Assembly: GCA_017475035.1 (NCBI GenBank)
Contig: JAFVGK010000120.1
Location: 1-34,069 of the forward strand
Length of the DNA stretch: 34,069 nucleotides
From: Blautia sp.
GTDB lineage: Bacteria > Bacillota > Clostridia > Lachnospirales > Lachnospiraceae
Direction: 5' to 3'
Part shown: in pieces, positions 11,101 to 34,069 of the stretch
Numbering within the stretch: the first letter of the stretch is position 1
Layout: every line of letters starts with the position of its first letter
The notes under the pieces: generated by a model
Told to the model about the DNA's origin: nothing
What the model saw: the letters and a program-made list of their open reading frames with translations, nothing else
The model's database searches: none
Position numbers and translations under genes: made by a program

Positions 11101-11172
11101 TTTTTCTCCTCCTTCCGAAACGAAGTTTTGTAAGTTGATTCAATGGATCACACAGATGGTACCGATACACAA

Positions 11173-11240: not shown

Positions 11241-11306
11241 TATAGTATATCCGAAATTGAAGCGAAACGGAATACATCAGATGTACAATTTTAGCCGAAA
11301 ATCATT

Positions 11307-15944: not shown

Positions 15945-17312
15945 ATGGAACGAAAAGGACTGATTCTGAAAAACAGATATTGTCTGATTGAAAAGCTGGG
16001 AAAAGGCGGAAACGGACAGATTTATCTTGCAAGGGATCTGCAGCTGGGCGTAACCTGGGCCGTAAAGGAATTCCCTTCCCGAAAGCGTTCCGAGGCAAAA
16101 ATGCTGAGCGGTTTGTCTCATCCCGGTATTCCCCGTATGATTGATTATATTGAAGAAGATGATGCAGGTTTTCTCGTTATGGAGTATATTAAGGGAATAA
16201 CCCTGGAAAAAAAGTGCAGAGAAGGAAAACCCATTCCGTTTCGGGAGCTCCTGGCCATGGCCCAATCGATACTGGAAATCCTTTCCTATCTTCATACGCA
16301 GGATCCCCCGATCCTGTTCGGGGATCTCAAGCCTTCTAATCTGATGATATCCGAGAACAGGCACATGTATCTCCTGGATTTCGGCAGCGCCGTTTCAGGA
16401 TACGGGAATCCGGAGAGAAGCTGCGAAGGAACTCCAGGATATGCCGCTCCGGAACAATATCAAGGCAGGATTCTTCCGTCCAGCGATATTTACGCCTTTG
16501 GCAAAACAATGGAATCCGTCAGCGGAAAAAGAATACGATTATTCCGGTTCCTTCATCCTGACTGGAGCCTGTTTATAAAAAAGTGTACAAAAGCTGACGC
16601 TGAAAAACGATGGAAAGATGCGCAAGAGGCATTAAAAGCCTTGCTTGCGGTCAGGCGGAGACAGGGCAGAATGAAACTGTTTGCCCAGGCAGGATTGGGG
16701 GCAATGGCATTGGCAGCCTGCCTTATCATTTCTTTTCTTCCGGGAGAAAATCAGCAGGATTTTTATCACAGGCTGACAGAGACCACAGACCGGTTTGAAG
16801 CATTATATGATACATCGAGAGCAGCCTCGGATACGGGAAGAGAATTATCCGAAAAGGAATCCACGAACGAAAGAAAAGATCCCACTGAAATAATAACGAC
16901 GAATAATAACAGAAAAGCTTTTATTACGAAAACGGTCGATACGGAGGAAGAAACCATCTTCCAAATAGCTGAGGATTTCGATTTTGCGGCCACAGACAAG
17001 GAATTGCGCGTCCTTCTTCAGGATGCTGCGCCGTCAGCAGAAAGAGGAAAAATCCTTTATCTGTTAGCCATTAACGCAGAACTGGCCGGCAATCAAGAGA
17101 GAGCCGCATTGTTTTATGAAGATCTGATACTCAGCGAAAAGGATAACCTGCCTGCCTATGCAGCCTATGGTCGATTTCTTTACAGAACCGGTCAGAATGA
17201 AAAAAGCCTGGCGCTTCTTCGGGATGTCCGGGATAAAATTGGCAGAGGAGAACTGACCCCGCAATCAGTGCGGGATTTCAGGCTATGGGAGAAGGAAATT
17301 CAATATGGATAA
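15945..17312 (+). CDS. Hanks-type Ser/Thr protein kinase with one membrane helix and extracytoplasmic TPR-like domain
   Basis: 455 aa. Kinase domain (about 10-235): glycine loop GKGGNG (19-24), ATP-binding K41, catalytic D127 in GDLKPSN, DFG at 145-147 and GTPGYAAPEQ at 162-171. The Arg before the catalytic Asp is Gly (non-RD), so activation-loop phosphorylation may not control it as in RD kinases. One membrane helix (about 247-267), then a Ser/Thr-rich linker and a helical domain (about 340-430) with TPR-like pairs. No PASTA repeats, so it is not a PrkC-type kinase. The ATG at 15945 is 7 nt after GGGGG; a GTG lies 6 nt upstream. The stop overlaps the lipoprotein start by 8 nt. Confidence 0.88.
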   Translation: MERKGLILKNRYCLIEKLGKGGNGQIYLARDLQLGVTWAVKEFPSRKRSEAKMLSGLSHPGIPRMIDYIEEDDAGFLVMEYIKGITLEKKCREGKPIPFRELLAMAQSILEILSYLHTQDPPILFGDLKPSNLMISENRHMYLLDFGSAVSGYGNPERSCEGTPGYAAPEQYQGRILPSSDIYAFGKTMESVSGKRIRLFRFLHPDWSLFIKKCTKADAEKRWKDAQEALKALLAVRRRQGRMKLFAQAGLGAMALAACLIISFLPGENQQDFYHRLTETTDRFEALYDTSRAASDTGRELSEKESTNERKDPTEIITTNNNRKAFITKTVDTEEETIFQIAEDFDFAATDKELRVLLQDAAPSAERGKILYLLAINAELAGNQERAALFYEDLILSEKDNLPAYAAYGRFLYRTGQNEKSLALLRDVRDKIGRGELTPQSVRDFRLWEKEIQYG

Positions 17313-18459
17313 AAAGGCACGGTTCTTTCTTTTTTTAATCTTTATGATTTTCCTGCGTTTTTGCCTGGCAGCCTGCGGCGATTTTGGGGGATTTGAGGTT
17401 CTGGTAGAACCAGGAAACGGAAATATCGATTTTTACGATTGGGAAAGCGACCCTTATGCCGGATCCCGGAATGAGCAGGAAGTTTATGATGGATGGTATG
17501 AAGAATCAGATTATGATTCTTTCCAGGATGTGTATCAGGAGCCGGATTATGATTCATATACTGATGTATACCAGGAGTCGGATTACGGTTCTTTCCGGAA
17601 TGTGTATCAAGATCCTGCTTATGGTTTTTATTATGACGATTATGGCATGGCTTCCGAGACCACCGTAAATAACGAAGAAGCAGCTTTGCCAGCCGCCGGG
17701 GGAACGGATCCGTCTGCTTATGAAACACCATTCCATGATCACGCGCCTTCTCAGACAGAAAACAGGGATTGGGCTTTTGAAGGCGGATTTACAAGTGAGG
17801 TACAGACATACACACATTCCCAGGTTGATTTTTCTCATGAAGAAGCTATGCCAGCCGCCGGAATGACGCCGATCCTGACAACGGTTCCCACATTATCACC
17901 GATGCCGTCTATTGCGAACCCGACCAGGATTCCGACGACGATCCCTGCGATGACCTCAAAGCCGACACAGATCCCTGCACGGATCCTGAATCCGACCGGG
18001 ATCCCCTCCGTGACGCCGATATCAACACAGGTCCCTGTACGGATGCCGGAGCCGACCAAAATCCCCTCCGTGACACCGACGCCGACGCAGATCCCTTCGT
18101 GGATGCCAAAGCCAACCAGGAGCCCTGCAGCGGCACCGGAACAAACAGGGATCCCTTCAGCACGAAACACCGGGCACGGAGCCCTTGCCGCTGACGCGTC
18201 AGCAGGCAATGACGCAGCCGACTTGCAGACGGCAGGCAGCATTGATATAGGATTTCAGTTTCAGGAAGACGGCATATTGGTTGAAGGTGAATCCTGGTCA
18301 GGCATCCTTTCCCTCCGGAAAAACGGAGAAGAAATCCCCTGGCATTGGGAAGATGATAAAGTAAAGCCGGAAACAAGCCTGGACAAGGGCGATCAAATCT
18401 CCCTGATTGCCGTCGCGGACGGGAAGGGGATTGTAAAAAGAGAGTGGGTGATAATTTGA
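17305..18459 (+). CDS. Repeat-rich lipoprotein of unknown function
   Basis: 384 aa, not recognised as a known family. The N-terminus is a signal peptide with lipobox LAAC (Cys24), so it should be membrane-anchored outside the cell. Residues 69-104 are three 12-residue repeats of the form DYDSFQDVYQEP, very rich in Asp and Tyr. Residues 211-290 are eight 10-residue Thr/Pro repeats of the form TQIPARILNP, likely an extended stalk. A small beta-rich domain (about 300-384) closes the protein. The start overlaps the kinase gene by 8 nt and its stop overlaps the protease gene, so all three are translationally coupled. It may be a wall-spanning partner of the kinase; that is inference. Confidence 0.75.
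   Translation: MDKKARFFLFLIFMIFLRFCLAACGDFGGFEVLVEPGNGNIDFYDWESDPYAGSRNEQEVYDGWYEESDYDSFQDVYQEPDYDSYTDVYQESDYGSFRNVYQDPAYGFYYDDYGMASETTVNNEEAALPAAGGTDPSAYETPFHDHAPSQTENRDWAFEGGFTSEVQTYTHSQVDFSHEEAMPAAGMTPILTTVPTLSPMPSIANPTRIPTTIPAMTSKPTQIPARILNPTGIPSVTPISTQVPVRMPEPTKIPSVTPTPTQIPSWMPKPTRSPAAAPEQTGIPSARNTGHGALAADASAGNDAADLQTAGSIDIGFQFQEDGILVEGESWSGILSLRKNGEEIPWHWEDDKVKPETSLDKGDQISLIAVADGKGIVKREWVII
17509..17616 (+). repeat. Three 36-bp tandem repeats coding Asp/Tyr-rich units
   Basis: Unit pattern GATTATGATTCTTTCCAGGA and variants, coding DYDS(F/Y)xDVYQE(P/S). Diverged at DNA level, so not a recent expansion. Confidence 0.75.
17935..18174 (+). repeat. Eight 30-bp tandem repeats coding a Thr/Pro stalk
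   Basis: Ten-residue units beginning T-x-I/V-P at residues 211, 221, 231, 241, 251, 261, 271 and 281. Similar 30-bp units (for example GATCCC-T and ACGCCGACGCAGATCCC) make slippage and length change between strains likely. Confidence 0.8.
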
Positions 18460-19286
18460 TAAAAAGAAATCATATTCTGTCTTTCCTTTGGAGAGCAGCA
18501 TATCCTGTAGCGATCCACTTTTTGGTCGGGCAGGTGGTCGCGCACATTTTTTTAACCGTGATTTTATGGATGGGAGGATCATCGAAAGATTATATCGCGG
18601 CTGCCATGACCGTAACGGGAATCGCAGATCTGTTGGTGATTTTTATTCTTTTACCTCTTTATTTCAATGACAGCTGTCAAAGAAAGGCAAAGGGAATCAT
18701 TCCTCTATTTACAAGATATTTTCCTTCCGTGAAAGACTGCGTTCTGCTGCTTGCTTTAGGAGCGGGACTGGCGGAATATCTCAATATGATCGTTTTAACC
18801 CTGACACAATGGCTTCCTGAAGACGGATACGCTGAGCAGATGAGCCAGATCCTGGATGGAAAAAGTTTTATTTATATGCTGCTGTGGATGGGAATCATCG
18901 CTCCTGCAGCGGAGGAAATTCTTTTCCGCTGGCTTGTTTTTTTGCGTCTGAGAGACCGGCTCGGATGCATTGTCAGTGCCTTGTTGAGTGGTCTTGCCTT
19001 TGGGATTTACCATGGGAACATCAGTCAGGCAATTTACGCGGGAGTCCTTGGTTTTCTGTTCGCGTATATTTTTGACGGAACCGGAGTCCTGACGAGCACG
19101 ATCTTCCTTCATATCGGGGCAAATGTCTGGGGAGTGGCTGTAGAATATCTGGCGGATTATTTTACCACCGATACAGGCTATACCATATTTGGAGTGATGT
19201 CGGGATTTTTGATGATTTGTGTTATCTTCGGCCTGAGATATTTCTTCCGTATCTGCAGCCGGCCAAAAAAAGGACGGCTGCTGTGA
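18456..19286 (+). CDS. CPBP-family intramembrane metalloprotease (CAAX protease / Abi-like)
   Basis: 276 aa. Multi-helix membrane protein with all three CPBP motifs: EEILFR (in APAAEEILFRW), FGIYHGN and HIGANVWG, which supply the metal and catalytic residues. The family cleaves membrane or prenylated peptides and in bacteria often serves regulated proteolysis or bacteriocin self-protection. The start is taken as TTG at 18456, overlapping the lipoprotein stop (TTGA) with GTGGGTGAT before it; a GTG at 18444 would add 4 residues. Third gene of the kinase-lipoprotein operon. Substrate unknown; the lipoprotein or kinase domain next door is a candidate by context only. Confidence 0.87.
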   Translation: MIKRNHILSFLWRAAYPVAIHFLVGQVVAHIFLTVILWMGGSSKDYIAAAMTVTGIADLLVIFILLPLYFNDSCQRKAKGIIPLFTRYFPSVKDCVLLLALGAGLAEYLNMIVLTLTQWLPEDGYAEQMSQILDGKSFIYMLLWMGIIAPAAEEILFRWLVFLRLRDRLGCIVSALLSGLAFGIYHGNISQAIYAGVLGFLFAYIFDGTGVLTSTIFLHIGANVWGVAVEYLADYFTTDTGYTIFGVMSGFLMICVIFGLRYFFRICSRPKKGRLL

Positions 19287-20161: not shown

Positions 20162-21859
20162 TCAGGCCTTCCGTATCAGACACTTTTCCCCTTCAAATGC
20201 AAATCCGTATCTCATGATTCTGTTTTCCGGTATTCCTCTCTGGATCAGGTCTGCGGCATATTGCTTTTCTTCGATCTGTAAAAGAGCGTTCTTCGCGGTA
20301 TCCTCCAGGCTGCTCTCCTCATCTTCTTTGTCGTAGACCTTAAATTCCATAATAACCGCCGGATCCTTTTCATCCTTTGGTTCCATTACAACATCATAGC
20401 GGCCAAACCCGGATTCCCGGTTGGATTTCACCATATACTGATCCGCTTTGTCCACCAATAATCCCAATACAAAACCATGGTAAAATCTTTCAGGTTCTTT
20501 CTTTTCCGATGGCTTTTTCCCTGCATCAAAACAACTGAACGTATTCAGTGCTACCCTGTTCATATAATAGTTCATGCCACGGACATCTCCACGGAACATT
20601 GAGCTGATAAACTCATTGAATTCGGATCCTTCTGCAAACCATTCTTCTACCATACGGAAAAACATCAGTTTCACTTCATGATTGGTGAGGGTCAGATGAT
20701 AATCCGGATAACTATCGGGTGTTTTCCGTGTTATCTCCGCCACCTTAAGATAACCGGAGGCCAAAAGCAGGCTCCAGACTGCCTGAGTGCTTTTGGAAAG
20801 CTGTTGAAAGACAATCTGCTCGTCGATTCTTGCAACGATGCATTCGCCATTTAACAGCTTTTCGAACTCTGTTTTGATTCCCTTATCCCCTTCCCGGATC
20901 AGCTTGCCAATTAATCCGTTTCCGCTGGTATTCGCCCAATGTGTATCAAATTTCCGTTTATCCAGGTAAAGTGTAATAGACCAGGGATTATAGATATCTG
21001 AGATTTCGCCAAAGGTATATCCGTCATACCAGTATTTTACTTTTTCTTTCTCTGTTTCCGGAATCCCCATCCGGTCCAAAGCCTCAATGACTTCTTTTTC
21101 CGTAAAGCCAAATGCAGTGGAATATTCATCAGAAGTAGTCGTAATCACGTTCAGGTTGTTCAGATCAGAAAAAACGCTTTCTTTGCTCACTCTGGTAATC
21201 CCGGTCATCATCCCGCGTTCCAGATAGGGGTTCGTCTTAAAGGTGTTGTTAAATAAGGCCCGGATATAGGAAGTCAATTCTTCCCAGTAACCATGAATGT
21301 ACGCCTCCTGCATAGGGGTATCGTATTCATCAAGCAGTACAATACTTTTTTTTCCATAGTAACGCTGCAATAATCCGCACAGTCTGTTTATGGACAATGC
21401 GGCTGTGGACTCATCCATGGTCTCTGTCACATTCCGGTAAAAATCTCTCTCCTTCACTGAAAATCGGCTGTCCTCCAAAATCCATGCAAATTCCTCATAC
21501 AGGCTGGCGATCAAGCTGTTTATTGTTTTTTTTGTATTCGAAAAATCGGCATGCTTTATTCCTGCAAAGGATAAAAACAGCACCGGATACGATCCCTGTA
21601 TTTTTCTGTATTTTTCATCCGTCCAGATTTCCAGTCCTTCAAACAAGTCTTTCCGGTCCTTATATTTATTGGAAAAGAAATAATCCAGCATACTCATATT
21701 CAGCGTTTTTCCGAAACGGCGAGGACGTGTAATCAAAGTCACATCGTCTTCCTTCTCCCACCATTCCCTGATAAAAGATGTTTTATCTATATAAAAGCAT
21801 TTCTTTTCCCGCAGCTTCCCGAAATCCTGTACGCCGATCGCTATTTTTTCACTCAGCAT
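20162..21859 (-). CDS. AAA-ATPase-like / PD-(D/E)xK nuclease family protein (PF09820 + PF08011 type)
   Basis: 565 aa. The N-terminal half is AAA-ATPase-like: IGVQDFGKLREKKCFYIDKT and the P-loop-like RPRRFGKT at 45-52, both hallmarks of this family, plus a Walker B-like IVLLDEYDTPM. The C-terminal part has a nuclease core GRYDVVM ... VIMEFKVYD followed by a helix, the PDDEXK_9 pattern. Such proteins occur in many copies in gut Clostridia and Bacteroidetes; their function is not established, though a role with mobile or foreign DNA is often suggested. The frame opens at 21883, but AGAGGAG lies 5 nt before the ATG at 21857-21859. No partner gene is adjacent. Confidence 0.88.
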   Translation of the reverse strand: MLSEKIAIGVQDFGKLREKKCFYIDKTSFIREWWEKEDDVTLITRPRRFGKTLNMSMLDYFFSNKYKDRKDLFEGLEIWTDEKYRKIQGSYPVLFLSFAGIKHADFSNTKKTINSLIASLYEEFAWILEDSRFSVKERDFYRNVTETMDESTAALSINRLCGLLQRYYGKKSIVLLDEYDTPMQEAYIHGYWEELTSYIRALFNNTFKTNPYLERGMMTGITRVSKESVFSDLNNLNVITTTSDEYSTAFGFTEKEVIEALDRMGIPETEKEKVKYWYDGYTFGEISDIYNPWSITLYLDKRKFDTHWANTSGNGLIGKLIREGDKGIKTEFEKLLNGECIVARIDEQIVFQQLSKSTQAVWSLLLASGYLKVAEITRKTPDSYPDYHLTLTNHEVKLMFFRMVEEWFAEGSEFNEFISSMFRGDVRGMNYYMNRVALNTFSCFDAGKKPSEKKEPERFYHGFVLGLLVDKADQYMVKSNRESGFGRYDVVMEPKDEKDPAVIMEFKVYDKEDEESSLEDTAKNALLQIEEKQYAADLIQRGIPENRIMRYGFAFEGEKCLIRKA

Positions 21860-21992
21860 CTTTCTCCTCTGCTTTTCTTTCATGCCTGCATCGACTGATA
21901 ATCAAAACCCGCCTCTTTTTCCAAAGCGTCCTGGCTTATATCTTCTTAAGAAGCAATAGCCTTCAGTGTCTGACAGACTTACAGTACTGACT

Positions 21993-23038: not shown

Positions 23039-24466
23039 TCAATGAAACCTCGGCAGCCAGTCCCCATGCGCCTCGATCAGTTCATCGCACATGGCCACAA
23101 TATCATCAATGGAAAGTTCCGAGCCTGCATGCGGATCAAGCATGACTGCCTGATAGATATAATCCTTCCGAAGTGTCCTGGCAGCTTCTATTGTCAAAAG
23201 CTGTACATTAATATTCGTCCGGTTGAGGGCGGCGCACTGTTCAGGCAGATCTCCGATCACCGTCGGCTGTACGCCATTCCGATCCACCAGGCAAGGCACC
23301 TCCACGCAGGCTTTTTGGGGGAGATTTGTTATATACCCATGATTGAGAACATTTCCTCCGATTTTTACCGGAATGTCGGTTTCCATGGCTTCCATGATAT
23401 AGCTGGCATACTCACGGGATCTTACATGCGTGAGGATCGGATTTCTTGTCAATTCATAACCGCGTTTTTTCCAGTCTTCAATCTGGTGTATGCACCGTCT
23501 GGGATACTCATCCAGTGGAATATTATACCGGCTGATCAGATCAGGATAATTCCGTTTAATAAAATAAGGGGTATATTCCGCATTATGCTCACTGGATTCT
23601 GTCAGATAATATCCGAAACGAAGCATAAGCTCCAGACGAACCATATCCCCATGACGTCCCGTAGCCTGATACAGATCATATTCCTCCCGCATCCGCTCCG
23701 TCCATTCTCCGGGTCTGGGTTCTCCAAGAGTCATCCTTTCCGCGAATTCCTCAAAGCTTCCGATATCCAATTTCCCCTGATTGAACAAACGGGCCCGTCT
23801 TTTTATTTCCGGATAGAGATCCTCTCCATTTCTCGAGCATTCGAGCAGCCAGGCCTGATGGTTGATGCCGGCAATCTTATATTTCACGGATTCGTCATAT
23901 CCGATCCCAAGTTCATTCAGCAGAGTCGGGGCACATACCTGAACGCTGTGGCATAGTCCTACCGTCCTGACATTGGTCAGACGCAGCATAGCGCCTGTAA
24001 GCATTGCCATAGGATTGGTATAATTCAGCAGCCAGGCATCAGGACAGACCTCCTCGATATCATGCGCAAAATCCAGCATGACAGGGATCGTACGCAAAGC
24101 ACGAAACACTCCGCCCACTCCCAACGTGTCGGCAATCGTCTGTTCCAGCCCATATTTCTTCGGAATTTCAAAATCCGTGATCGTACAGGGATCATATCCT
24201 CCCACCTGAATGGCATTGACCACATAATCCGCTCCTCTGAGAGCTTCTTTGCGGCTTTGAACTCCAAGATATTTCTCAATGTGTGCTTTGGAGCCATTGT
24301 TGCGATTAATCGCCTCAAGCATGGCTGCTGACTCATCCAGCCGCAGCTGGTCAATATCGTATAAAGCGATCGTGCTCTCTTCCAGCGCAGGCGTCATCAT
24401 ACAGTCTCCCAGAACATTTTTCGCAAAGACAGTCGATCCGGCTCCCATAAATGTAATCTTTGGCAT
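23039..24466 (-). CDS. Glycoside hydrolase family 4, alpha-galactosidase (MelA)-like
   Basis: 475 aa. GH4 enzymes need NAD+ and a divalent metal and cleave by oxidation-elimination. The N-terminal Rossmann motif FMGAGSTVF, NYTNPMAM and the metal-binding GLCHSVQ with Cys-His, then AGINHQAW, match the MelA branch rather than 6-phospho-glucosidases, so an unphosphorylated alpha-galactoside (for example melibiose) is the likely substrate. GAGGG is 7 nt before the second ATG (24464-24466), so I prefer this to the ATG two codons upstream. A promoter lies at 24686-24713. No transporter gene is adjacent. Confidence 0.88.
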   Translation of the reverse strand: MPKITFMGAGSTVFAKNVLGDCMMTPALEESTIALYDIDQLRLDESAAMLEAINRNNGSKAHIEKYLGVQSRKEALRGADYVVNAIQVGGYDPCTITDFEIPKKYGLEQTIADTLGVGGVFRALRTIPVMLDFAHDIEEVCPDAWLLNYTNPMAMLTGAMLRLTNVRTVGLCHSVQVCAPTLLNELGIGYDESVKYKIAGINHQAWLLECSRNGEDLYPEIKRRARLFNQGKLDIGSFEEFAERMTLGEPRPGEWTERMREEYDLYQATGRHGDMVRLELMLRFGYYLTESSEHNAEYTPYFIKRNYPDLISRYNIPLDEYPRRCIHQIEDWKKRGYELTRNPILTHVRSREYASYIMEAMETDIPVKIGGNVLNHGYITNLPQKACVEVPCLVDRNGVQPTVIGDLPEQCAALNRTNINVQLLTIEAARTLRKDYIYQAVMLDPHAGSELSIDDIVAMCDELIEAHGDWLPRFH

Positions 24467-24685
24467 ACTCATTCCCTCTTCTTATATGTTATATGCAAAA
24501 ATGAGTGAGTTCTTCCGGTATGACCTTTTGCCGCCTGAATCATTCTACAGCTTTTGACATAAGCTCCCTTAAATCCACATGGAAGCTTCATTTCTGCCGC
24601 TCATCAGATCTTGTGATCCGGGCAGGAAAGGATCTGCCAATCGGCCGGATACCGGCATAAAACCACCCCTTTTCTTTTTGATTAT

Positions 24686-25647: not shown

Positions 25648-25819
25648 GGATGTACTCTGTGATTCAGCTGCAGCATGTCATTTAAAAATGAGCGGGTTCC
25701 GAGCAGCTGCATATTGCTGCGTGCCAACGACACAGCGCAGGCATCCTTAAGGATGAGGCTGGCAGCGACCGGCATACTGAGCTCCAGCGGCACCCGGATC
25801 ATTCGGGTTATTGTGTAAA

Positions 25820-25880
25820 AAGACTCCGTCAGTATTGTTCTGTGCTTCAGGCCCTCACAATTCTGACGGAGTTTTTTTTT
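25820..25880 (+). terminator. Terminator of the SDR gene
   Basis: ACTCCGTCAG (25823-25832) pairs with CTGACGGAGT (25863-25872) across a 30-nt loop, followed by an unbroken run of nine T (25872-25880). 25648-25819 shows only a decayed AAAAATGAGCGGGTTCCGAG repeat module. Confidence 0.85.
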
Positions 25881-25953
25881 CATGAATAATCGGTAAACGT
25901 CACCCACTGGCGGCATTCTCCCTTAGGCGGCTCAGAGATAAAACGGTGATAAA

Positions 25954-26024
25954 AAGAGGACAGTTCCCAGCATTCTCATAAGGATGGATACACCAGATTT
26001 AAGAATGCAGGGAACTGTCCTCTT
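25954..26024 (-). terminator. 22-bp stem terminator at the end of the GH91 operon
   Basis: Arms 25954-25968 plus 25970-25976 pair with 26010-26024 plus 26002-26008 (AAGAGGACAGTTCCC and GCATTCT with one mismatch between). On the minus strand it is followed by TTTTTATC, 15 nt after the GH91 stop region. The long stem resembles REP-like palindromes as much as a simple terminator. Confidence 0.82.
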
Positions 26025-26039
26025 GGTTTTATGCTTTCT

Positions 26040-27383
26040 TTACGGCAGCACCCGAATCACATTCATACGTGAATCCGCTTCGAACTGCCCTTCGTGTACG
26101 GTATCCAGAACTGTATTTCCCTGAGCCGGAGAATCAATTACGACCTCGACAGTCTCCAGCTTCGTAAGGTGATTCGTGGTCAGCAACGCTCCTACCTGGG
26201 CTTCAAAGCAGTTCTCTGTCTCCTCCTTCAAATGATCCGCCTCTGTCGTCGTCGCCACAATATGATTCCCGTAAATATAATTTCCCGTCCCCGCAGTCAC
26301 CCGAATCACCACAGGCTTTACTCCCAGCGGTTTTAACAGGCTCCGGTCTATTGTTTCCGAAATATGGTTCGCGCTGATCGTGTTATTGTCTCCGTTGACG
26401 CAAAGCAAGCCAAAATCATCTTCCAGACCGTTGTCATACCGTTTCATAGGCGGCCAGGGCTCCGCATCTCTCAAAAAATGGTTGGACGCAACCAGGTTTT
26501 CGGTGCAATGGTTCTCCAGACGCAGCATTCCGGGATAGAAGGAATGAAAGCGATTAGAGGTAACGCAGGATCGTACCACGCCGGAAAAATGAATGCTGCT
26601 GCTCCCTCTGGGGAAAACATTGTTTGCTGTGATCAGCATTCCTGCCATTTCACTGATATAAATAGAATATCCCCTGTAGCCTGCGCCGATCAGATTGTCC
26701 GTCACCTTGCCCGCCTGTCCGGGACCACGCAGCTCGATACAGTTTCCGCATTCCGCGATGAAATTATCATGCACGGAAATGGCATCTCCCAGGCAGACCG
26801 TAAGCCCATGCTCCAGATAGATGAGTCCCATTCCGGCAACACGGAAAGAATCCTGCTTACTGGCAACATAGATTCCGGTCTTTCCGTTCAGATAGGTGTT
26901 CTCCGGATCCTTCGTGCCGGTGCTGCGGTCCTCAAAATGAAGGCCGTCAATGCAGAAATTCACGAATTCCACAGAGCTGATTCTGGGTTCTCCTTCACGC
27001 TTGACCAGGAAGGCCGCCCCCTCTTCTTCAGGAGCATTATCAGGAACTTCAAGCTCCACCATTACCCTGCTTCCCCCCGGCCAGAGTTCATGGAGGTTTT
27101 TCCATTCCGTCTCCGGTGTGTTAAACCGGATACTGGAAGAAACAAAGCCATGCCCGCTTCCCTCGATCCGCAGGTAGCTGATATCAATCAACACCTGTGT
27201 GCGGAGCCGATAATCACCGGAAGGAATATAAATGACCGCGCCGGGCTTGCCAAACCCATCCGCATCCGTCTGCGTCTGCCTGGCTTTCACATCCGCCAGA
27301 ATACTGTTGATAACCTCGCCGATATCCTCATAGGGATTACCCGTCTTCCATTCAGTAACATCATAATAATTGATTCCGGACAT
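26040..27383 (-). CDS. Glycoside hydrolase family 91: inulin fructotransferase / difructose-anhydride hydrolase
   Basis: 447 aa, close to the family length without a signal peptide. GH91 enzymes are right-handed beta-helix trimers that convert inulin ends to difructose dianhydrides (DFA I or III) or, in DFA-hydrolases, open the dianhydride to inulobiose. Family sequence is visible: DGFGKPGAVIYIPSGDY, LRTQVLIDISYL, GSGHGF, and DNFIAECGNCIEL with D206 and E217, spaced 11 apart as are the two catalytic acids known in GH91 structures (from memory). It starts MSGINYYDV with no signal peptide, so it is cytoplasmic, unlike the secreted inulin fructotransferases. AGAGGGA precedes the ATG. Last gene of the sugar operon, 15 bp after GH32. 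Fructotransferase versus hydrolase cannot be decided by eye. Confidence 0.87.
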   Translation of the reverse strand: MSGINYYDVTEWKTGNPYEDIGEVINSILADVKARQTQTDADGFGKPGAVIYIPSGDYRLRTQVLIDISYLRIEGSGHGFVSSSIRFNTPETEWKNLHELWPGGSRVMVELEVPDNAPEEEGAAFLVKREGEPRISSVEFVNFCIDGLHFEDRSTGTKDPENTYLNGKTGIYVASKQDSFRVAGMGLIYLEHGLTVCLGDAISVHDNFIAECGNCIELRGPGQAGKVTDNLIGAGYRGYSIYISEMAGMLITANNVFPRGSSSIHFSGVVRSCVTSNRFHSFYPGMLRLENHCTENLVASNHFLRDAEPWPPMKRYDNGLEDDFGLLCVNGDNNTISANHISETIDRSLLKPLGVKPVVIRVTAGTGNYIYGNHIVATTTEADHLKEETENCFEAQVGALLTTNHLTKLETVEVVIDSPAQGNTVLDTVHEGQFEADSRMNVIRVLP

Positions 27384-27398
27384 TTGATTTTCCCTCTG

Positions 27399-28877
27399 TC
27401 ATGCCTGCTTCATCCCATAGGTTTCCAGGTCTGTTATCACGGTCTCTCCGCTTCTCGAAATGAAGAAAACTCCGTTCTGGTCATTTCCCGCAAAGATATT
27501 GTTGGACTGATTATTTGTATACTGATCCGTAAAGATTTCCAGGGAGCTCTGATCTGAATAGATATGGACATCCAGCTCTTTTTTGCCTCCTAAAAACAGA
27601 CTGCTTCTGGATACTCCCACACTCCATCCATCTGCCTGTGTCCGATCCACGCGGAGTTCTCCCTTTTCCAGGTCAAACTCTATCATGGTTTTCTTCCCTT
27701 TTCCACTGCGAAGTTCGAGTTCCAGGCATCCGGCTGTCGTTTTTTCCAGATCAATCGCAAACTTCATTTCAAAGCTGACGCCATCTCCGGCCTGCACCGC
27801 TTCCCTTTGGTCTGACACCGTCAGTGTCTTTACATGCATCGGATTTTCACGAAGCTGTTCAAGCTCCCTGATCGGGCGGAAGCTGATCCTGCCGTCCTTC
27901 GTAAATGACACTTCCCTGGGCAGATTGAAAAATCCGCACCAGCCTTCCTTATAGGCAGGACCCCAGTCTTTAAAAAGTGGCATCCATTGCCACTGGTTTG
28001 CCCAGGCTGTCGTAATCCGCCTTCCGTCCGGCGCAAGGAAAGATTGCGGCGCATAATATTCAAAACCCCAGTCCATCTCCCGAACAGACTCACAGTCAAA
28101 AATCCCTGTTTTATAATCGAACTTCCCCACCTGGCAGATTGAGGTATGGTCTCCCACGCCAATGGGCGAACAGGTCAGCACATATTTCTCACCCAGAGGG
28201 AAGAAATCCGGACATTCCCACATTCTCCCCCATTCTCCTCTGTTTTCCGAGAGAATACTCTGGAAAGACCAATGGAACAGGTCGGCAGACCGATACAAAA
28301 ATGCCTGGCCCCGTCCATGGAAGCTTGCGGCACAGACCATATAAAACCGATTCTCATGTTTCCAGATCCTGGGATCCCGGAACTGATCCTTCAAAACGCC
28401 TTCCGGTGCCCGTAAGACTGGATTCCCCGCGTATTTTTCAAAATGAATTCCATCCTCACTGTATGCCAGACATTGGGTTTGCTCAATTCCCGCAGGCGTA
28501 TTCATGACTCCGGTATAGACCAGATACAGTTTCCCCTCATGCTCAATCGCACTGCCGGAAAAGCAGCCTCCCAGCTGATAATCATCATATTCTTCGCTGG
28601 GAGCCAGCGCCACAGGCAGGTCTTCCCAGTGAATCAAATCCTTACTGATCGCATGCCCCCAGTGCATGCAGTCCCAGAACCCGGAATATGGATTATGCTG
28701 ATAAAAGAAATGATAATTTCCCTTGAAGTAAATCAGTCCGTTTGGGTCATTCAGCCACCCGGCGGGCGCCATAAAGTGATAGCGCTGCCGCATTTCCCCT
28801 TTCCTGATTCTCTCTTTGTTCTTCTCAACAGCCTCTCCGGCTTTGCGGATATTCTGTTCCATAAGCTCTTTTGACAT
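27399..28877 (-). CDS. Glycoside hydrolase family 32, beta-fructofuranosidase
   Basis: 492 aa. Retaining enzyme releasing fructose from beta-fructosides. Five-blade propeller with the three GH32 signature acids: D44 (WLNDPNG, nucleophile), D168 (FRDP, transition-state stabiliser) and E221 (WECP, acid/base). A C-terminal beta-sandwich (about 345-490) follows. No signal peptide, so it acts on imported sugar. It could be sucrose(-phosphate) hydrolase by sequence, but its place in an ABC rather than PTS operon, next to GH91, suggests an unphosphorylated fructan disaccharide such as inulobiose. RBS AAGGGTG. It starts 10 bp after the second permease. Confidence 0.93.
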   Translation of the reverse strand: MSKELMEQNIRKAGEAVEKNKERIRKGEMRQRYHFMAPAGWLNDPNGLIYFKGNYHFFYQHNPYSGFWDCMHWGHAISKDLIHWEDLPVALAPSEEYDDYQLGGCFSGSAIEHEGKLYLVYTGVMNTPAGIEQTQCLAYSEDGIHFEKYAGNPVLRAPEGVLKDQFRDPRIWKHENRFYMVCAASFHGRGQAFLYRSADLFHWSFQSILSENRGEWGRMWECPDFFPLGEKYVLTCSPIGVGDHTSICQVGKFDYKTGIFDCESVREMDWGFEYYAPQSFLAPDGRRITTAWANQWQWMPLFKDWGPAYKEGWCGFFNLPREVSFTKDGRISFRPIRELEQLRENPMHVKTLTVSDQREAVQAGDGVSFEMKFAIDLEKTTAGCLELELRSGKGKKTMIEFDLEKGELRVDRTQADGWSVGVSRSSLFLGGKKELDVHIYSDQSSLEIFTDQYTNNQSNNIFAGNDQNGVFFISRSGETVITDLETYGMKQA

Positions 28878-28887
28878 TTTTTCACCC

Positions 28888-29718
28888 TTATCCCTTAACT
28901 GCTCCGGAAGTCATACCCTGAACAATATATTTCTGCGCAGCCATAGAAATCACCATTACCGGAAAGCTGAACAATAAGGCTCCCGCGCACATCGGTCCCA
29001 GGTCAAGATTATATGCAGACAGAAAGCCTGCCAGACCTACGGTAAAGGTCTTTGCTTTGGTGCTGGTAAGAAGCAGGGATACCAGGAAATCGTTCCATGC
29101 CAGAAAGAGTGTAAAAATAAAGGCGGTCGTTAATCCCGGCTTACAGATCGGAAGAATGACTCTGGAAAAGGTCTGCAGGCTGCTGGCTCCATCAATATAA
29201 GCAGCCTCATCCAGGGACGACGGAATCCCTTCAAAAAAGCTTAACATTGTCCACATGACAAAAGGCATATTGATGGCAGCATAGACAATAATCAGGGCGA
29301 TCCGAGTATCATACAGCCGAAGCCTGCAGATCAGTTCATAGACAGGTACGACAATACTGGAGGTCGGCAGCATCTTCAGGCAAAGAACCAGAACTACCAG
29401 AAAAACAGAAAGCTTCGCTTGGGAGCGCTGAATCGCATAGGCCGCCAGCGATCCCAGGATTACGGCTATGACGGTACTGCAAAGTGCCGTGATCAGACTG
29501 TTTAACATAAATCCCGTTACATTCATTCTGGAAAAAAGCCCAAAAAAGTTTTCCACGGTAACTATCGTGGGGAAAAATTTCGGCGGAACCGCAATTACCT
29601 CGGATCCTGGTTTGAAAGAACAGCAGATCACATAAATATACGGAAACAGCCAGAAAACAGTCAGAAGGACAGAAGCAATGATCCCGATCTTTTTTCCGAT
29701 TTGTCTGTTATTATTCAT
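28888..29718 (-). CDS. Sugar ABC transporter permease (CUT1, MalG-like)
   Basis: 276 aa with six membrane helices. EAAYIDGASSLQTFSRVILPICKPG (about residues 171-195) is the EAA loop that contacts the ATPase. The N-terminal WLFPYIYVICCSFKPGSEV matches MalG-type permeases. It pairs with the upstream permease to form the channel of the importer. Both are 17 bp apart in the same operon. No ATP-binding subunit gene is present in the operon; Firmicutes usually supply one shared MsmX-type ATPase. Confidence 0.92.
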   Translation of the reverse strand: MNNNRQIGKKIGIIASVLLTVFWLFPYIYVICCSFKPGSEVIAVPPKFFPTIVTVENFFGLFSRMNVTGFMLNSLITALCSTVIAVILGSLAAYAIQRSQAKLSVFLVVLVLCLKMLPTSSIVVPVYELICRLRLYDTRIALIIVYAAINMPFVMWTMLSFFEGIPSSLDEAAYIDGASSLQTFSRVILPICKPGLTTAFIFTLFLAWNDFLVSLLLTSTKAKTFTVGLAGFLSAYNLDLGPMCAGALLFSFPVMVISMAAQKYIVQGMTSGAVKG

Positions 29719-29735
29719 TTTGTTCTCCCTCCTGC

Positions 29736-30623
29736 TCAGATTTTCTTCTTCGGGTTCCAGAGACTCTGCATGAATACCAAAGTAAACGCCACCAGCACAA
29801 TAATAAAGATTACTGCCATGGCACTGGCATAGCCTGTATTATTAAATCTTGTCAGGGTTTTATAAATGATAATGCTGATCGTCTCCGAAGAGCTGTTAGG
29901 TCCTCCCTCTGTCATAGACCAGATAATATCAAAAGTCCGGGCGGCGTCAATAATACGGATGGAAAGAGCAGTAAGCAGAATGGGCTTAATCATTGGCATC
30001 TTGATATAAAAGATTTCCTGAAGCATGGAAGCCCCATCTATACGGGCCGCTTCAATCATGCTGGAATCCAGTCCCTGAAGACCGGCCAGAATCATCAGCA
30101 TCATAAAAGGCGTTGTCAGCCAGATATCCGCGATGCAGCATGCCAGAAGAGACCATCTGGAATCTGCCAGCCAAAGAATGTCACTGGGACTGGAAAGGAT
30201 ATGAAAACGGGTCAACAGCTCATTGACAATACCGAAACTGGAGCTCATCATAAGCTTCCATGTCAGTCCGGCAACCAGCGGGGCAATCATCAGCGGAGCC
30301 ATCATCAGGGTACGGACAATCTTGCTGCCTTTATAATTCAGTTCAAAAAGAAGAGCGAAAAGAATTCCTAAAATCGTCTCTGTACCGACAGCGATAAGGA
30401 TATATAACAGTGTATTCCTGAGCTGTTTCAGGAATCCGCCGGCTGTAAAGGCTTTTATGTAATTGGCAGCCCCGATAAAAATTCTGTTGCCCATGATATC
30501 TATCTTATAAAAGCTGTCGATAACCATCGTGATAATCGGGTAAATAAGAAATGCCCCCATGAAGATTGCACCGGGCAAAAAGAATAACAGCAGCGTTTTC
30601 CTGGAAATCAGTCTCATATTCAT
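29736..30623 (-). CDS. Sugar ABC transporter permease (CUT1, MalF/UgpA-like)
   Basis: 295 aa with six membrane helices and an EAA loop (EAARIDGASMLQEIFYIKMP). The N-terminus LLFFLPGAIFMGAFLIYPII is typical of the MalF/UgpA-type partner. The gene follows the solute-binding protein after an 86-bp gap that holds a 14-bp perfect hairpin. GAGGCGGT precedes ATG at 30623; the ATG two codons later is equally spaced for translation and cannot be excluded. Confidence 0.92.
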   Translation of the reverse strand: MNMRLISRKTLLLFFLPGAIFMGAFLIYPIITMVIDSFYKIDIMGNRIFIGAANYIKAFTAGGFLKQLRNTLLYILIAVGTETILGILFALLFELNYKGSKIVRTLMMAPLMIAPLVAGLTWKLMMSSSFGIVNELLTRFHILSSPSDILWLADSRWSLLACCIADIWLTTPFMMLMILAGLQGLDSSMIEAARIDGASMLQEIFYIKMPMIKPILLTALSIRIIDAARTFDIIWSMTEGGPNSSSETISIIIYKTLTRFNNTGYASAMAVIFIIVLVAFTLVFMQSLWNPKKKI

Positions 30624-30641
30624 ACCGCCTCTTTCTTAAAA

Positions 30642-30675
30642 AGAGGGCATTCCTCCGGTGAGAGGAATGCCCTCT
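30642..30675 (-). terminator. Attenuator-type hairpin between binding-protein and permease genes
   Basis: Perfect 14-bp stem: arms 30662-30675 and 30642-30655 with a 6-nt loop, followed on the minus strand by TTTT. Expected to stop part of transcription or protect the 3' end of the binding-protein mRNA, giving more binding protein than permease. Confidence 0.82.
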
Positions 30676-30709
30676 GAAACCTGTTTCAAGCCACTGAAAA
30701 GATATTACT

Positions 30710-31909
30710 TTATCCGATCGCTTCGATCTGGGCTTTAGCGTCTTCCAGGGTGGAAACAACATCAGCTCCGCCGAGGCAGGACTCTACAACACCTACCAGG
30801 ACTTCTTCGGTCATAGCCCAGGTCTGTGTCATAGGTCTCGGCTGAGACTGCTCTGCGGCAAGAGTATCAAGGACAGCTTTGGTATGCTCATTGCCTTCCT
30901 GTGCGCCAGCTTCTTCGTAAACAGAAGTTCTGCCCGCAATCTTCAATGTAAGATTCATGTAATCTGCATTGTGATCATACATGTAAGCCGCATACTTCAT
31001 TGCCATTTCCTTATTGACGGAATTTTTCATGACACATTCATACCACGGGCCTGTAGTTGCGCCGATGCCTGCACTGCCTGCGATCATCGGGGCACAGCCT
31101 ACCTTGTCAGCGCCAAGGGCGGCAACTGCTGCCGGATACTGATGGCTCCAGTTCAGCTGCATGGCAACCTTGCCATTATTGAACAGTTCCTGGGACTCGG
31201 TAGCTGCCGTAGCCAGAGAATCAGCCGGTGTATAGTCTGCGTTCGCATTTTCCACCATGAAATTCAGGGCGTCTACATAAGCCTGATCTGTAATGTTTAC
31301 ATTACCGTCTGCATCATAGACAAGTCCCTGGGCGCCAGCCTGGCAGGCGAAATCCAGGAAGGAGCAGACAGCGTCCGTTCCGCTTCCGAATACGGTGGTA
31401 CCATACATTTCATCATCAGCCATCTCTGCCGCCAGTGCCTGATACTCTTCCCAATTGGTCGGGACCTTATCTTCCGGAATGAGGTCCTTACGATAGATCA
31501 GAATCTTCGCATTCACCCACATCGGGTATCCAAGAAGGTTTCCGTTGATCGTTCCGCTCTCTTCCAGTGTAGGAAGGAAATCACTGGTATCGACATCTGT
31601 CAGAGGCTCGATAGCCGGATCAAAGGCTGCCAGCCATACGAAGTCCATGCATGCCACATCGTGAGCTGCCTGGCCTGCCTTGATTTCGGTGGCAAGCTTG
31701 TCATACATGCCGGTGTAAGCTACGGCATCTACGATAACCTTACAGCCGGTCTCAGCCTCGAAATCTGCCGCTGTTGCATTGGCAAGAGCTTCAGCCGGAG
31801 ATCCGCTCTCTACCAGAACAGTAATACTGTCATCCGCGAATGCCTGTGCGCAAAACAGGGTTCCCATGACTGCTGCAGCAAGAATCATCCCAAGTGTTCT
31901 TTTTTTCAT
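30710..31909 (-). CDS. Extracellular sugar-binding protein of the CUT1 importer
   Basis: 399 aa. Captures the sugar outside the cell and delivers it to the two permeases. The signal peptide MKKRTLGMILAAAVMG is followed by a cleavage site AFA-DD at about residue 25. There is no lipobox: the only nearby Cys (C20) is preceded by TLF. In a Gram-positive cell this would give a soluble or otherwise retained protein, which is unusual for an ABC binding protein. The mature part has the SBP_bac_1 layout (FEAETGCKVIVDAVAYTGMYDKL). RBS AAAGGA 9 nt before the ATG. First gene of the operon, with promoter and operators upstream. Confidence 0.9.
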   Translation of the reverse strand: MKKRTLGMILAAAVMGTLFCAQAFADDSITVLVESGSPAEALANATAADFEAETGCKVIVDAVAYTGMYDKLATEIKAGQAAHDVACMDFVWLAAFDPAIEPLTDVDTSDFLPTLEESGTINGNLLGYPMWVNAKILIYRKDLIPEDKVPTNWEEYQALAAEMADDEMYGTTVFGSGTDAVCSFLDFACQAGAQGLVYDADGNVNITDQAYVDALNFMVENANADYTPADSLATAATESQELFNNGKVAMQLNWSHQYPAAVAALGADKVGCAPMIAGSAGIGATTGPWYECVMKNSVNKEMAMKYAAYMYDHNADYMNLTLKIAGRTSVYEEAGAQEGNEHTKAVLDTLAAEQSQPRPMTQTWAMTEEVLVGVVESCLGGADVVSTLEDAKAQIEAIG

Positions 31910-31979
31910 GATTTGTTTCCTTTCTTAATCCGTGAATTGTGAAAAGTGACATGAGCTGTTTACAAAGTCGTTCGTTTGG

Positions 31980-31993
31980 TGGAACGCGTTCCA
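31980..31993. promoter_or_regulatory. LacI-type operator O2
   Basis: Perfect 14-bp palindrome TGGAACGCGTTCCA, about 106 to 119 bp downstream of the predicted transcription start, in the 5' leader. Shares GGAAC-n2-GTTCC with O1. Spacing between O1 and O2 centres is about 98 bp, which would allow DNA looping. Confidence 0.75.
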
Positions 31994-32073
31994 TATTCAG
32001 GAAAATGAAAGAGAAGCTTTGGAAACCTGCTTCTCTGCCTTTCTCAATATCAAGAACGAATATTTCGATCCCT

Positions 32074-32095
32074 GATGTGGAACCCGTTCCGCATC
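32074..32095. promoter_or_regulatory. LacI-type operator O1
   Basis: 22-bp imperfect palindrome: GATG, then TGGAACCCGTTCCG, then CATC; 9 of 11 pairs match. Lies at about +5 to +26 from the predicted start, where bound repressor would block transcription. Confidence 0.78.
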
Positions 32096-32105
32096 TGATA
32101 AAATT

Positions 32106-32133
32106 ATTATACATGTTTTTCATAGAATGTCAA
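32106..32133 (-). promoter_or_regulatory. Consensus sigma-A promoter of the sugar operon
   Basis: Minus strand TTGACA (32128-32133), 16-bp spacer, TATAAT (32106-32111). Both hexamers are perfect. Start expected near 32099, giving a leader of about 190 nt to the binding-protein ATG. Confidence 0.88.
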
Positions 32134-32293
32134 GCTGAAACTACACAAGCAGTCATATTTGTGAAATATTCACAAATTTATAAGGGGACTCTTGTGCATA
32201 ACTTTCAGATCAAAAAGCTGCCTGAAACCTGCTCTTATCCAGACACGCCCATACAAGGATGGATGTGCCCGGATCCACGACTTTCCTGATCAG
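32134..32293. other. Gap upstream of the operon promoter
   Basis: Contains a small palindrome TTTGTGAAATATTCACAAA (32159-32177), possibly a regulator site. No gene seen. Confidence 0.5.
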
Positions 32294-32420
32294 CTTAGGA
32301 TCTGTGCATAAATAACTTTTGCATCCGGCGCGTCTGAATCCTCCCAGGCTGCGTTGTTGTCCGCCGCCTTGCCTGGACGTATTTATCCTGCACCTTCTGT
32401 ATAGGTTATTTTTGCACAGC
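32294..32420 (-). repeat. Palindromic repeat E2 running into the end of lacI
   Basis: Minus-strand homologue of E1: ends CTGTGCAAAAATAACC and CTGTGCATAAATAAC are inverted copies, with the stem TACGTCCAGGC/GCCTGGGAGG and the conserved AGACGCGCCGGATG. The repeat end GCTGTGCAAAAATAA supplies the last codons (AVQK) and the stop of the LacI gene. Confidence 0.78.
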
Positions 32421-33404
32421 TCCTTGTTTTGTTGTTTCACCTTGCTTCAGGAAAACCTTCAGCAATACCTGTTTCTCACAAATCTCGTTTCCGTCAATCA
32501 TATCTTTAATCAGACGTACCGTTGCTTCCGCCAGATCCTTTACAGGCTGTACTACTGCGGTCACCTTTGGCTCCACCACGTCTGTAAGATACGTTCCGTC
32601 ATAAGCCACAATTCTGATATCCTCGGGAATCCGCAAGTGTCTGCGCAGAGCTTCGTTCATACATGCGATTGCCAATCCGTCCACGGCAAAAACACCATCA
32701 AACTCTATGCTGCCGGAAAATATCCTCTTTACCTCTCTTTGGTAATATCCGGGATCCATTCGATTCCACTCCAGCTCATAGGAGAATACCCGGATCCCGT
32801 TTTCTTCCATGATCCGGTTAAACTCAAAATGTCTCTGATGATACGGCGAACCCACAGCGGTGGTACCTGTAAAATGCAGCACATTTTTACAGCCGTTGTC
32901 AGCCAGTGTTTCGGCGGCCAGCTTTCCGCCTTCCTTATGGTCCACCGCAACAACAGGGATATGGTCTCCCAGATATCTGTCCAGAGCGACAATCGGTTTT
33001 CGGATTTTCTGGTATTCCTCTATATCCAATGTGTGAACACCTGTAATGACGCCATCCACTATATGGCGATTTAACATATCCAGATATTCCAGTTCCGCAT
33101 TCTGCTCTTTTTCCGTATTGCAGACCATCATCTTGTAACCCGCCGCATACAAGGCTTCTTCCGCATAATTTAAAAATGCCGCAAAGAAAGGATGTGAGAT
33201 ACTCGGAACAAGAATCGCTATAATGCCGGTGCGCTTCCTGTAAAGATTCCGCGCCAGTTCATTCGGCGTATAGTTCAGCTCCCGCATGGCAGCCCTGATC
33301 TTTTCTTTCGTCTCCTCGGCGACATACCCGCTGTTATTTAAAAACCGTGAGACTGTACCGACTCCCACATTTGCCTTTTTTGCGACATCCTTTATTCCTG
33401 CCAC
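32406..33404 (-). CDS. LacI-family transcriptional regulator of the fructan/DFA operon
   Basis: 332 aa. N-terminal helix-turn-helix IKDVAKKANVGVGTVSRFLN (residues 4-23) plus hinge NELARNLYRKRTG, followed by a periplasmic-binding-protein-like sugar domain with the FDGVFAVDGLAIACMNEALR segment. It most likely represses the binding-protein/permease/GH32/GH91 operon from the operators at 31980 and 32074. Start is GTG at 33402-33404 with GGGGAGA about 8 nt upstream. Gene lies upstream of and in the same direction as the operon but has its own promoter candidate. The C-terminal four residues come from repeat E2. Confidence 0.92.
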   Translation of the reverse strand: MAGIKDVAKKANVGVGTVSRFLNNSGYVAEETKEKIRAAMRELNYTPNELARNLYRKRTGIIAILVPSISHPFFAAFLNYAEEALYAAGYKMMVCNTEKEQNAELEYLDMLNRHIVDGVITGVHTLDIEEYQKIRKPIVALDRYLGDHIPVVAVDHKEGGKLAAETLADNGCKNVLHFTGTTAVGSPYHQRHFEFNRIMEENGIRVFSYELEWNRMDPGYYQREVKRIFSGSIEFDGVFAVDGLAIACMNEALRRHLRIPEDIRIVAYDGTYLTDVVEPKVTAVVQPVKDLAEATVRLIKDMIDGNEICEKQVLLKVFLKQGETTKQGAVQK

Positions 33405-33446
33405 GCTATGCTCTCCCCTGAAAGAAACTGCTTTTTGTGTGTCTGC

Positions 33447-33610
33447 TTGGGACAGATTCAGAAATAAATGTCACGGATAATGAAGAATTCTGGTTTGGGA
33501 GTAAACCTCAAAAATCAGGCGCATAGCGGGCTATGTAACTGATTTTTGATGTATGCTCCCGGACAGAAAGACAAGTAATCCGGGACAGTAATTTCTGACT
33601 CAATCCTTAG
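33447..33610. repeat. Palindromic element B (164 bp), copy of element A
   Basis: Ends TTGGGACAGATTCAGAAATA and TTTCTGACTCAATCCTTA are inverted. Palindrome centre is CATAGC-GG-GCTATG with GG at 33528-33529. Aligns along its whole length with 12633-12796 in the same orientation. Begins 42 bp before the lacI start, as A begins 45 bp before the gtrA-like start. Confidence 0.85.
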
Positions 33611-33625
33611 GATCTGACACAAAAC

Positions 33626-33747
33626 AAAGTTACCATATTGCGAAGAATGATTTTTCGAGATCAGGGAAGAAAACGCAGCCGTACCGGGGTACGGCGAGGC
33701 TTTCTGACGCAGATATCGGAAAATCAAGCAAGCAGGATGGTGACTTT
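33626..33747. repeat. Palindrome H (122 bp, 2-nt centre)
   Basis: Left arm 33626-33685 and right arm 33688-33747 are each 60 nt and are imperfect complements: outer AAAGTTACCAT/ATGGTGACTTT, middle TGATTTT/AAAATCA, inner GCCGTACC/GGTACGGC, with GG at the centre. No second copy seen in the window. Confidence 0.78.
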
Positions 33748-33813
33748 ATTTGGCGGCATCTCCTTAAAAACCCTCGGTAAAACCAATCATTGACAGCTTC
33801 TGTTTTTGCTTGC

Positions 33814-33842
33814 AGTATAGCATGTCTGCTTCCTAAAGGCAA
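33814..33842 (-). promoter_or_regulatory. Candidate promoter for lacI
   Basis: Minus strand TTGCCT (33837-33842), 17-bp spacer, TATACT (33814-33819) with an upstream TGC extended -10. Transcripts would carry palindromes H and B in a leader of about 400 nt. Confidence 0.5.
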
Positions 33843-33908
33843 CAATCAATCAGAAGGGGGCAGGGTTGTTTCAAGAATAAGATGGCGCAAAGCATCATCA
33901 TGAAATAT

Positions 33909-34069
33909 TTAGGATTGCAACGTAAATTAATGGAACAAGATTTCGCAGGATAAATCGTCGTATGCAAGGCGGAGGATGGAGTCGATGCGGGCATCGACGA
34001 CTGACGACAACGCAGTAGACGACGATTTAGACGCGAAAGATGTTCCATTTATTTACGGGGCGATCCTTA
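33909..34069. repeat. Palindromic element E4, running to the window end
   Basis: Ends TTAGGATTGCAACGTAAATT and the complementary AAATTTACG-type end with GATCCTTA; arms TAAATCGTCGT (33951-33961) and ACGACGATTTA (34019-34029) are perfect, apex GTCGATGC-GG-GCATCGAC (33981-33998) is perfect. Shares CAAGGCGG, ACAACGCAG and AGACGCGAAAGATG with E1 and E2. Confidence 0.78.

Follow-up and report, generated by a model that had tools for sequence, protein, structure and literature searches.

Organization of the locus

The 34,069-nucleotide stretch of DNA analysed here (the window), contig JAFVGK010000120.1 of a Blautia sp. genome (assembly GCA_017475035.1), carries on its minus strand, in this order, genes for a LacI-family regulator, an extracellular solute-binding protein, two permeases of an ATP-binding cassette (ABC) importer and two glycoside hydrolases, of families 32 (GH32) and 91 (GH91), followed by an intrinsic terminator (Table 1). 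The locus is very probably an operon for scavenging difructose dianhydride III (DFA-III; di-D-fructofuranose 1,2':2,3' dianhydride), although the activity, transport and regulation of this particular copy are what we infer from its sequence. All six genes are open frames, and a preliminary description of this DNA, which had listed these genes and a terminator after GH91, is borne out on the minus strand with the families it named. Gaps of 86, 17, 10 and 15 bases separate the five genes from the binding protein to GH91, and the terminator hairpin starts 15 bases past the GH91 stop codon and is followed by a U run. The stretch 25935–26040 folds at −44.3 kcal/mol (z −8.19), which was equalled by none of 200 shuffles; the terminator is missing from a consensus motif scan of 25800–34069 because that scan takes only loops of 3–8 bases.

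The same description had treated the six genes as one directional unit. Their direction is indeed common, but the stretch between LacI and the next gene holds a separate promoter-like site with two palindromes for the five operon genes, so LacI is probably a transcription unit apart from them. Neither hydrolase was thought to carry a signal peptide, and the N termini of GH91 (MSGINYYDVTEW) and GH32 (MSKELMEQNIRKAGEA), judged by eye and with no predictor, agree with this in having no hydrophobic leader.

Table 1. Features of the putative DFA-III operon and its regulator, with positions in the window
Feature	Position	Strand	Basis
LacI-family regulator, 332 residues, GTG start	32406..33404	-	PF00356 4.8e-21, PF13377 1.5e-19
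Promoter-like site of the five operon genes, TTGACA-16-TATAAT	32106..32133	-	consensus match
Operator-like palindrome, GGAACGGGTTCC as read on the minus strand, 15 bases past the -10 box	32079..32090		motif search and related loci
Second operator-like palindrome, GGAACGCGTTCC, its centre 98 bases away from that of the first	31981..31992		motif search and related loci
Extracellular solute-binding protein, 399 residues, N-terminal leader MKKRTLGMILAAAVMGTLFCAQAFA (by eye)	30710..31909	-	PF13416 4.8e-25, PF01547 8.6e-25
ABC importer permease (MalF/UgpA type), 295 residues	29736..30623	-	PF00528 5.8e-16; NCBIfam UgpA/GlcT-like, under cut-offs
ABC importer permease (MalG/UgpE type), 276 residues	28888..29718	-	PF00528 8.6e-20; NCBIfam GlcU/MalG-like, under cut-offs
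GH32, predicted beta-fructofuranosidase, 492 residues, no visible leader	27399..28877	-	PF00251 2e-94, PF08244 2.7e-17
GH91, predicted DFA-III hydrolase (DFA-IIIase), 447 residues, no visible leader, D200/E211, lid Cys392	26040..27383	-	closest solved chain, alignment, tree
Intrinsic terminator, hairpin and U tail	25954..26024	-	fold of 25935–26040

GH91 groups with the DFA-III hydrolases

The GH91 product is a beta-helix protein that matches the Pfam inulin fructotransferase repeat (PF18835, 3.8e-08) as well as the general NosD and Beta_helix models. Its best solved chains are DFA-III hydrolases (DFA-IIIases), namely 5zks (8.1e-182 over residues 4–447), the C387A mutant 5zl5 and the shortened 5zky, and the weaker ones are the DFA-III-forming inulin fructotransferases 9j4i (1.6e-105) and 2inu (3e-101) and, with the label "fructotransferase", chain 8hsn (1.8e-72). 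Chain 5zks probably corresponds to the DFA-IIIase of Arthrobacter chlorophenolicus described by Yu et al. 2018. The best alignments to inulin fructotransferases stop at window residues 383 and 380, ahead of the lid cysteine, and that to 5zky breaks at 379 and restarts at 408, 5zky being without a piece that the window protein has. Omission of the lid converts an Arthrobacter DFA-III hydrolase into a fructotransferase (PMC11538131).

We aligned 85 GH91 rows, comprising the window, 80 related genome loci (the best 80 of 215 confirmed stretches, all chosen for GH91), locus L083 and three second-copy Arthrobacter rows (L098–L100), the last three being taken as fructotransferases because they have no lid and are 49–53% identical to the window protein. 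The catalytic Asp/Glu pair is kept in all 85 rows and falls at D200 and E211 in the window; PMC4640833 gives D207 and E218, likewise 11 residues apart, as the catalytic residues of A. aurescens DFA-IIIase found by docking and mutation, to which the window pair is matched by spacing and place, not through alignment of the A. aurescens sequence. The lid cysteine, Cys392 within CFEAQV in the window and C387 in the label of 5zl5, is present in 82 of 82 hydrolase-type rows and absent from L098–L100. Just before this cysteine, GH91 of Clostridiales bacterium 1_7_47_FAA (L033:10001-11503) has an insertion of about 55 residues built of a repeated AEGPEVQ-like unit.

Phylogenetic placement, proposed as a check in the preliminary description, separates the three fructotransferase-type rows from the other 82 with support of 100/99, the window lying on the DFA-III hydrolase side on a long branch of its own. 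There it falls into a group of 12 rows with support of 98/95, ten from Bacillota and two without an assigned group, the window being one of these two. Identity to the characterised enzyme of Blautia parvula (L031, NZ_CP084061.1, the record named in PMC11538131), whose genome has a single GH91, is 62.6%. By residues, alignment and tree the window GH91 is assigned to the DFA-III hydrolase branch and not to the inulin fructotransferase branch. We rejected an inulin fructotransferase identity in view of the lid, the lack of a visible leader and the far weaker fructotransferase matches; an obvious leader is found in just one of the three fructotransferase-type rows, so secretion is a weak yardstick for that activity.

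Conservation of the gene set

In 22 of the 80 related loci the binding protein is 74–84% identical to that of the window, and both permeases (78–85%) accompany it in every case. An orthologous GH32 (58–65%) is present in 18 of the 22 and a different GH32 (31–39%) in the other four, while 13 have an orthologous LacI (56–70%). GH32 and LacI are thus exchanged or missing in four and nine of these close-importer loci respectively, which suggests that the importer and GH91 form their core. In another 33 loci, from Paenibacillus, Bacillus, Arthrobacter, Bifidobacterium and others, the binding protein is 30–70% identical. In the subset of 71 loci with 6 kb or more ahead of GH91, close, 30–70% identical and no related binding proteins number 20, 32 and 19, and all 11 Pseudomonadota loci fall among the 19. 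Having been chosen for GH91, the 80 loci cannot test the association of importer and GH91, and they do not count as independent events, since L009 and L011 carry clusters with 99% identity and both L030 and L036 come from Hespellia. The 99% identity of the former pair, uncultured Clostridiales RUG154 (L009:4039-13408) and Blautia glucerasea MSK.21.93 (L011:3774-13142), extends over 9.4 kb, which may mean that the two genomes are closely related or that the cluster has moved. In the one Pseudomonadota locus inspected, from Enterobacter asburiae (L012:8533-11368), an MFS_2 sugar transporter stands directly before GH91 in place of the ABC importer and may represent an alternative way of taking up the same sugar.

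A sample of 392 genomes of the order, not chosen for GH91, was searched for GH91 (E at most 1e-30) and for the binding protein (E at most 1e-60, with at most four candidates scored per genome). GH91 was found in five genomes and the binding protein in four, all four within the five, small numbers that become 4 and 3 of 391 once the window genome is left out. The other three binding proteins are 55% (one genome) and 82% (two genomes) identical to that of the window, and in one genome of the sample an extra copy, 40% identical, lies elsewhere. Muricomes intestini (L004) is the match of the fifth GH91 genome, and there another binding protein lies nearby and the GH32 frame is short, 264 amino acids that hold only the end of the N-terminal domain and the C-terminal domain.

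The window GH32 carries both the N- and the C-terminal domain (PF00251, PF08244), and its closest solved chain, 7vco, bears the label sucrose-6-phosphate hydrolase. The operon encodes a binding protein and two permeases and no ATPase, and three UgpC-type ATPases score over the cut-off elsewhere in the genome. One ATPase can serve several importers, and the importer is probably powered by one encoded elsewhere.

Promoter-like site, palindromes and LacI

A promoter-like site followed by a pair of palindromes (GGAACGSGTTCC) lies in the 496 bases that separate LacI from the binding-protein gene. The promoter-like site agrees with the consensus at 12 of 12 positions and is the only such match in 25800–34069, a consensus match and not a measured start; promoter-like sites overall number 16 in the 8.3 kb scanned, little above the 11.3 expected by shuffling. 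Palindrome matches with up to two mismatches number 14 in the window, most of them one site counted on both strands, whereas 100 shuffles gave 4.4 on average and never as many as 14.

The same arrangement recurs in relatives with the same LacI. We surveyed 20 of the 22 loci with a closely related binding protein, L021 and L032 being excluded as too near a contig end, and a site of the form GGAACNNGTTCC lies ahead of the binding-protein gene in 12 of the 13 whose LacI is 50% identical or more (the exception is L038) and in one of the seven without (L036), giving a Fisher p of 0.0012 uncorrected for kinship. Ten of the 13 site-bearing loci have two sites, 50–89 bases apart with one mismatch allowed, and the window pair is 98 apart. 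No site of this form precedes the binding-protein gene in any of 31 loci with a 34–52% identical binding protein, L065 among them offering fewer than 400 bases upstream. Across the genome, with one mismatch allowed, an extended palindrome gave three forward and six reverse matches against seven and three for a reversed control; being no commoner than its control, it reveals no wider regulon beyond the two window sites. The layout of promoter and palindromes would fit two-operator repression by LacI.

The genome and the likely source of the sugar

The window genome comprises 5.08 Mb in 200 contigs and is estimated at 93.6% complete with 5.0% contamination. The window contig may be a contaminant of the assembly; its G+C content of 0.473 is near the 0.476–0.504 of five other stretches of the genome. 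Only one GH91 was recovered from this genome by a query that finds second copies in three of five Arthrobacter genomes, and since there is no second GH91 the organism most likely uses DFA-III made elsewhere, scavenged from food (caramel) or from other microbes. GH91 occurs in one of 36 other genomes of the genus (locus L082, part of L009, an uncultured Clostridiales record), a frequency below the overall rate of 32.4% published for the species surveyed (PMC11538131), the two samples being different. Another GH91-bearing congener, from the order sample, is by exact sequence match B. glucerasea MSK.21.93, which puts the window genome in the same GTDB genus as B. glucerasea. The matches listed for a PLD-domain gene of the window included no congener and were of no help for taxonomy.

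A phage origin finds no support, the GH91 gene having no match in 50,697 phage records. Relatives were found in 85 of 72,556 plasmid records, none at 80% identity or more, so no recent plasmid source was found; 70 of the 85 are from Rhizobium, and of the ten matches listed, eight bear no annotation other than NosD domain-containing protein. Elsewhere in the window, genes for GH2, GH3 and GH4 (alpha-galactosidase subfamily) at 5661–8042, 12935–15397 and 23039–24472 encode further sugar enzymes. An AAA-ATPase_like protein with a PDDEXK_9 nuclease domain is encoded on the minus strand at 20162–21883, and at 15939–19286 on the plus strand overlapping frames in one direction encode a Protein-kinase-domain protein, a product that matches no Pfam family and a CAAX-protease (Rce1-like) protein.

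Proposed pathway and alternatives

In the pathway that we propose, the binding protein and two permeases, probably with the ATPase encoded elsewhere, would import DFA-III, intracellular GH91 would open its ring reversibly to inulobiose, and intracellular GH32 would split inulobiose to two fructoses and so pull the reversible reaction forward. LacI would repress the operon at the two palindromes that closely follow the promoter and would be released from them when one of the pathway sugars, as inducer, is present. Import of a difructose dianhydride or short inulin, opening by GH91 inside the cell and cleavage by GH32 to fructose had already been suggested for this locus; the sequence now selects the DFA-III hydrolase branch, and the same pathway has been proposed for Blautia (PMC11538131), the enzyme reaction and growth on DFA-III having been demonstrated in print for relatives.

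Several observations weigh against this account. GH32 scores above the cut-off of TIGR01322, the scrB family named sucrose-6-phosphate hydrolase (371 bits against 356). The sequence does not tell which sugar is imported, and DFA-III is the putative ligand. A relative of the binding protein of at least 30% identity was unseen in 25 of the 80 GH91 loci, within stretches some of which are short, and GH91 thus also lives with other uptake systems. The window GH91 departs from 32 strongly conserved columns (at least 85% conserved); among the 82 hydrolase-type rows this count is the highest, ahead of 26 in the next row and a median of 8.5. Five of these departures lie within residues 243–249 (window 26637–26657), where ISEMAGM stands in place of a conserved AQNFGGL-like stretch and the alanine of 84 of 84 other rows has become isoleucine. 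A frameshift was considered for this segment and rejected, the DNA read by eye giving no family-like reading in other frames. Finally, the B. parvula DFA-IIIase acts also on nystose, GF4 and inulin (PMC11538131), which leaves room for short fructans.

This last activity, together with the fact that GH32 is a general beta-fructosidase family, would favour an operon that mainly imports short inulin-type oligosaccharides, GH91 trimming them to DFA-III and inulobiose and GH32 doing most of the work. However, B. wexlerae JCM 31267, which has no cluster, degraded 1-kestose and B. hydrogenotrophica, which has one, did not (PMC11538131), so the use of kestose is not tied to the cluster, and all four genomes of the order sample with the binding protein also have GH91. 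We regard such an operon as unlikely.

The divergence of the window enzymes raises another question, that of specificity. GH91 has the longest terminal branch of the hydrolase set (0.77), and in a comparison of the window with 16 of the 22 other clusters with a closely related importer the window has the lowest mean identity for both GH91 (64.1%, next 69.1%) and GH32 (62.3%, next 65.6%). The permeases average 83.0 and 80.6%, the latter barely the lowest (next 81.0), and the binding protein 80.5%; the binding protein, the other permease and LacI are second or third lowest. Divergence thus extends to some degree over the whole cluster and is greatest in the enzymes. The long branch, the low mean identity and the aberrant residues 243–249 would suit a GH91 that has moved, and its importer with it, to another cyclic or linear fructose sugar such as DFA-I, but the catalytic pair and the lid are kept, the importer is not similarly set apart, its means lying at or near the low end and close to the next rows, and Bifidobacterium dentium opens DFA-I by a GH172 enzyme (PMC8605356). 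Such a joint shift seems very unlikely. It is also very unlikely that GH91, with its rewritten 243–249, has shifted in specificity while a standard importer and LacI control were kept, the same layout then serving another fructose dianhydride or oligosaccharide. A DFA-III scavenging operon stays our strongly preferred interpretation.

Comparison with known systems

Ye et al. 2024 (PMC11538131) showed that purified B. parvula DFA-IIIase converts DFA-III to inulobiose and, together with a bifidobacterial GH32, yields fructose, and that three cluster-bearing strains grow on DFA-III, for which uptake by an ABC importer was proposed. Their clusters from B. parvula, B. hansenii, B. hydrogenotrophica and B. 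wexlerae share with the window a GH91 DFA-IIIase, a GH32 and an ABC importer, arranged for an intracellular inulobiose route. The novelty implied earlier for an intracellular GH91 with its own importer does not hold, since this is already published for Blautia (PMC11538131), and an intracellular DFA-III hydrolase had been proposed still earlier for Arthrobacter (PMC8605356, PMC4640833). The window cluster is a further member of the described DFA-III system, and its gene set is not new. The B. parvula locus (L031) has the window order of binding protein, two permeases, GH32 and GH91 (77, 82, 82, 63 and 63% identity), but unlike the window it is without an orthologous LacI and without such a palindrome before the binding-protein gene. 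Some of the published strains have a GH39 or sugar kinase gene nearby, LacI is unmentioned in the text of that report (PMC11538131), and the window GH91 is more diverged.

The inulin-to-DFA-III pathway of Arthrobacter, summarised by Kashima et al. 2021 (PMC8605356), resembles the window in having relatives of the DFA-IIIase (61–62% in five loci), of the importer (binding protein 34–35%) and of GH32 (29–33%) nearby, whereas three of the five Arthrobacter genomes, unlike that of the window, carry an additional GH91 without a lid, no more than about 9 kb away. The DFA-I operon of B. dentium likewise combines LacI, GH32, an ABC importer and an intracellular dianhydride-opening enzyme, but its ring opener, as Kashima et al. 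2021 describe, is a GH172 that acts on DFA-I and is inactive on DFA-III. GH91 is stated to be not conserved in Bifidobacterium (PMC11538131); B. cebidarum and B. felsineum (L034 and L037; GH91 at 10001-11344 in each) have a hydrolase-type GH91 that keeps the lid cysteine, and the opposite strand encodes an ABC importer (binding protein 42–43%, permeases 50–57%) and a LacI (39–40%).

The open-licence literature searched yielded no description of a LacI regulator or operators for DFA-III clusters, and the regulatory layout, a promoter and two palindromes that track an orthologous LacI, is an addition to the published system. The window brings a diverged member to the gut-bacterial DFA-III pathway, which bears on DFA-III as a prebiotic and on the use of caramel sugars, and its recurring palindrome offers a directly testable candidate regulator for this pathway.

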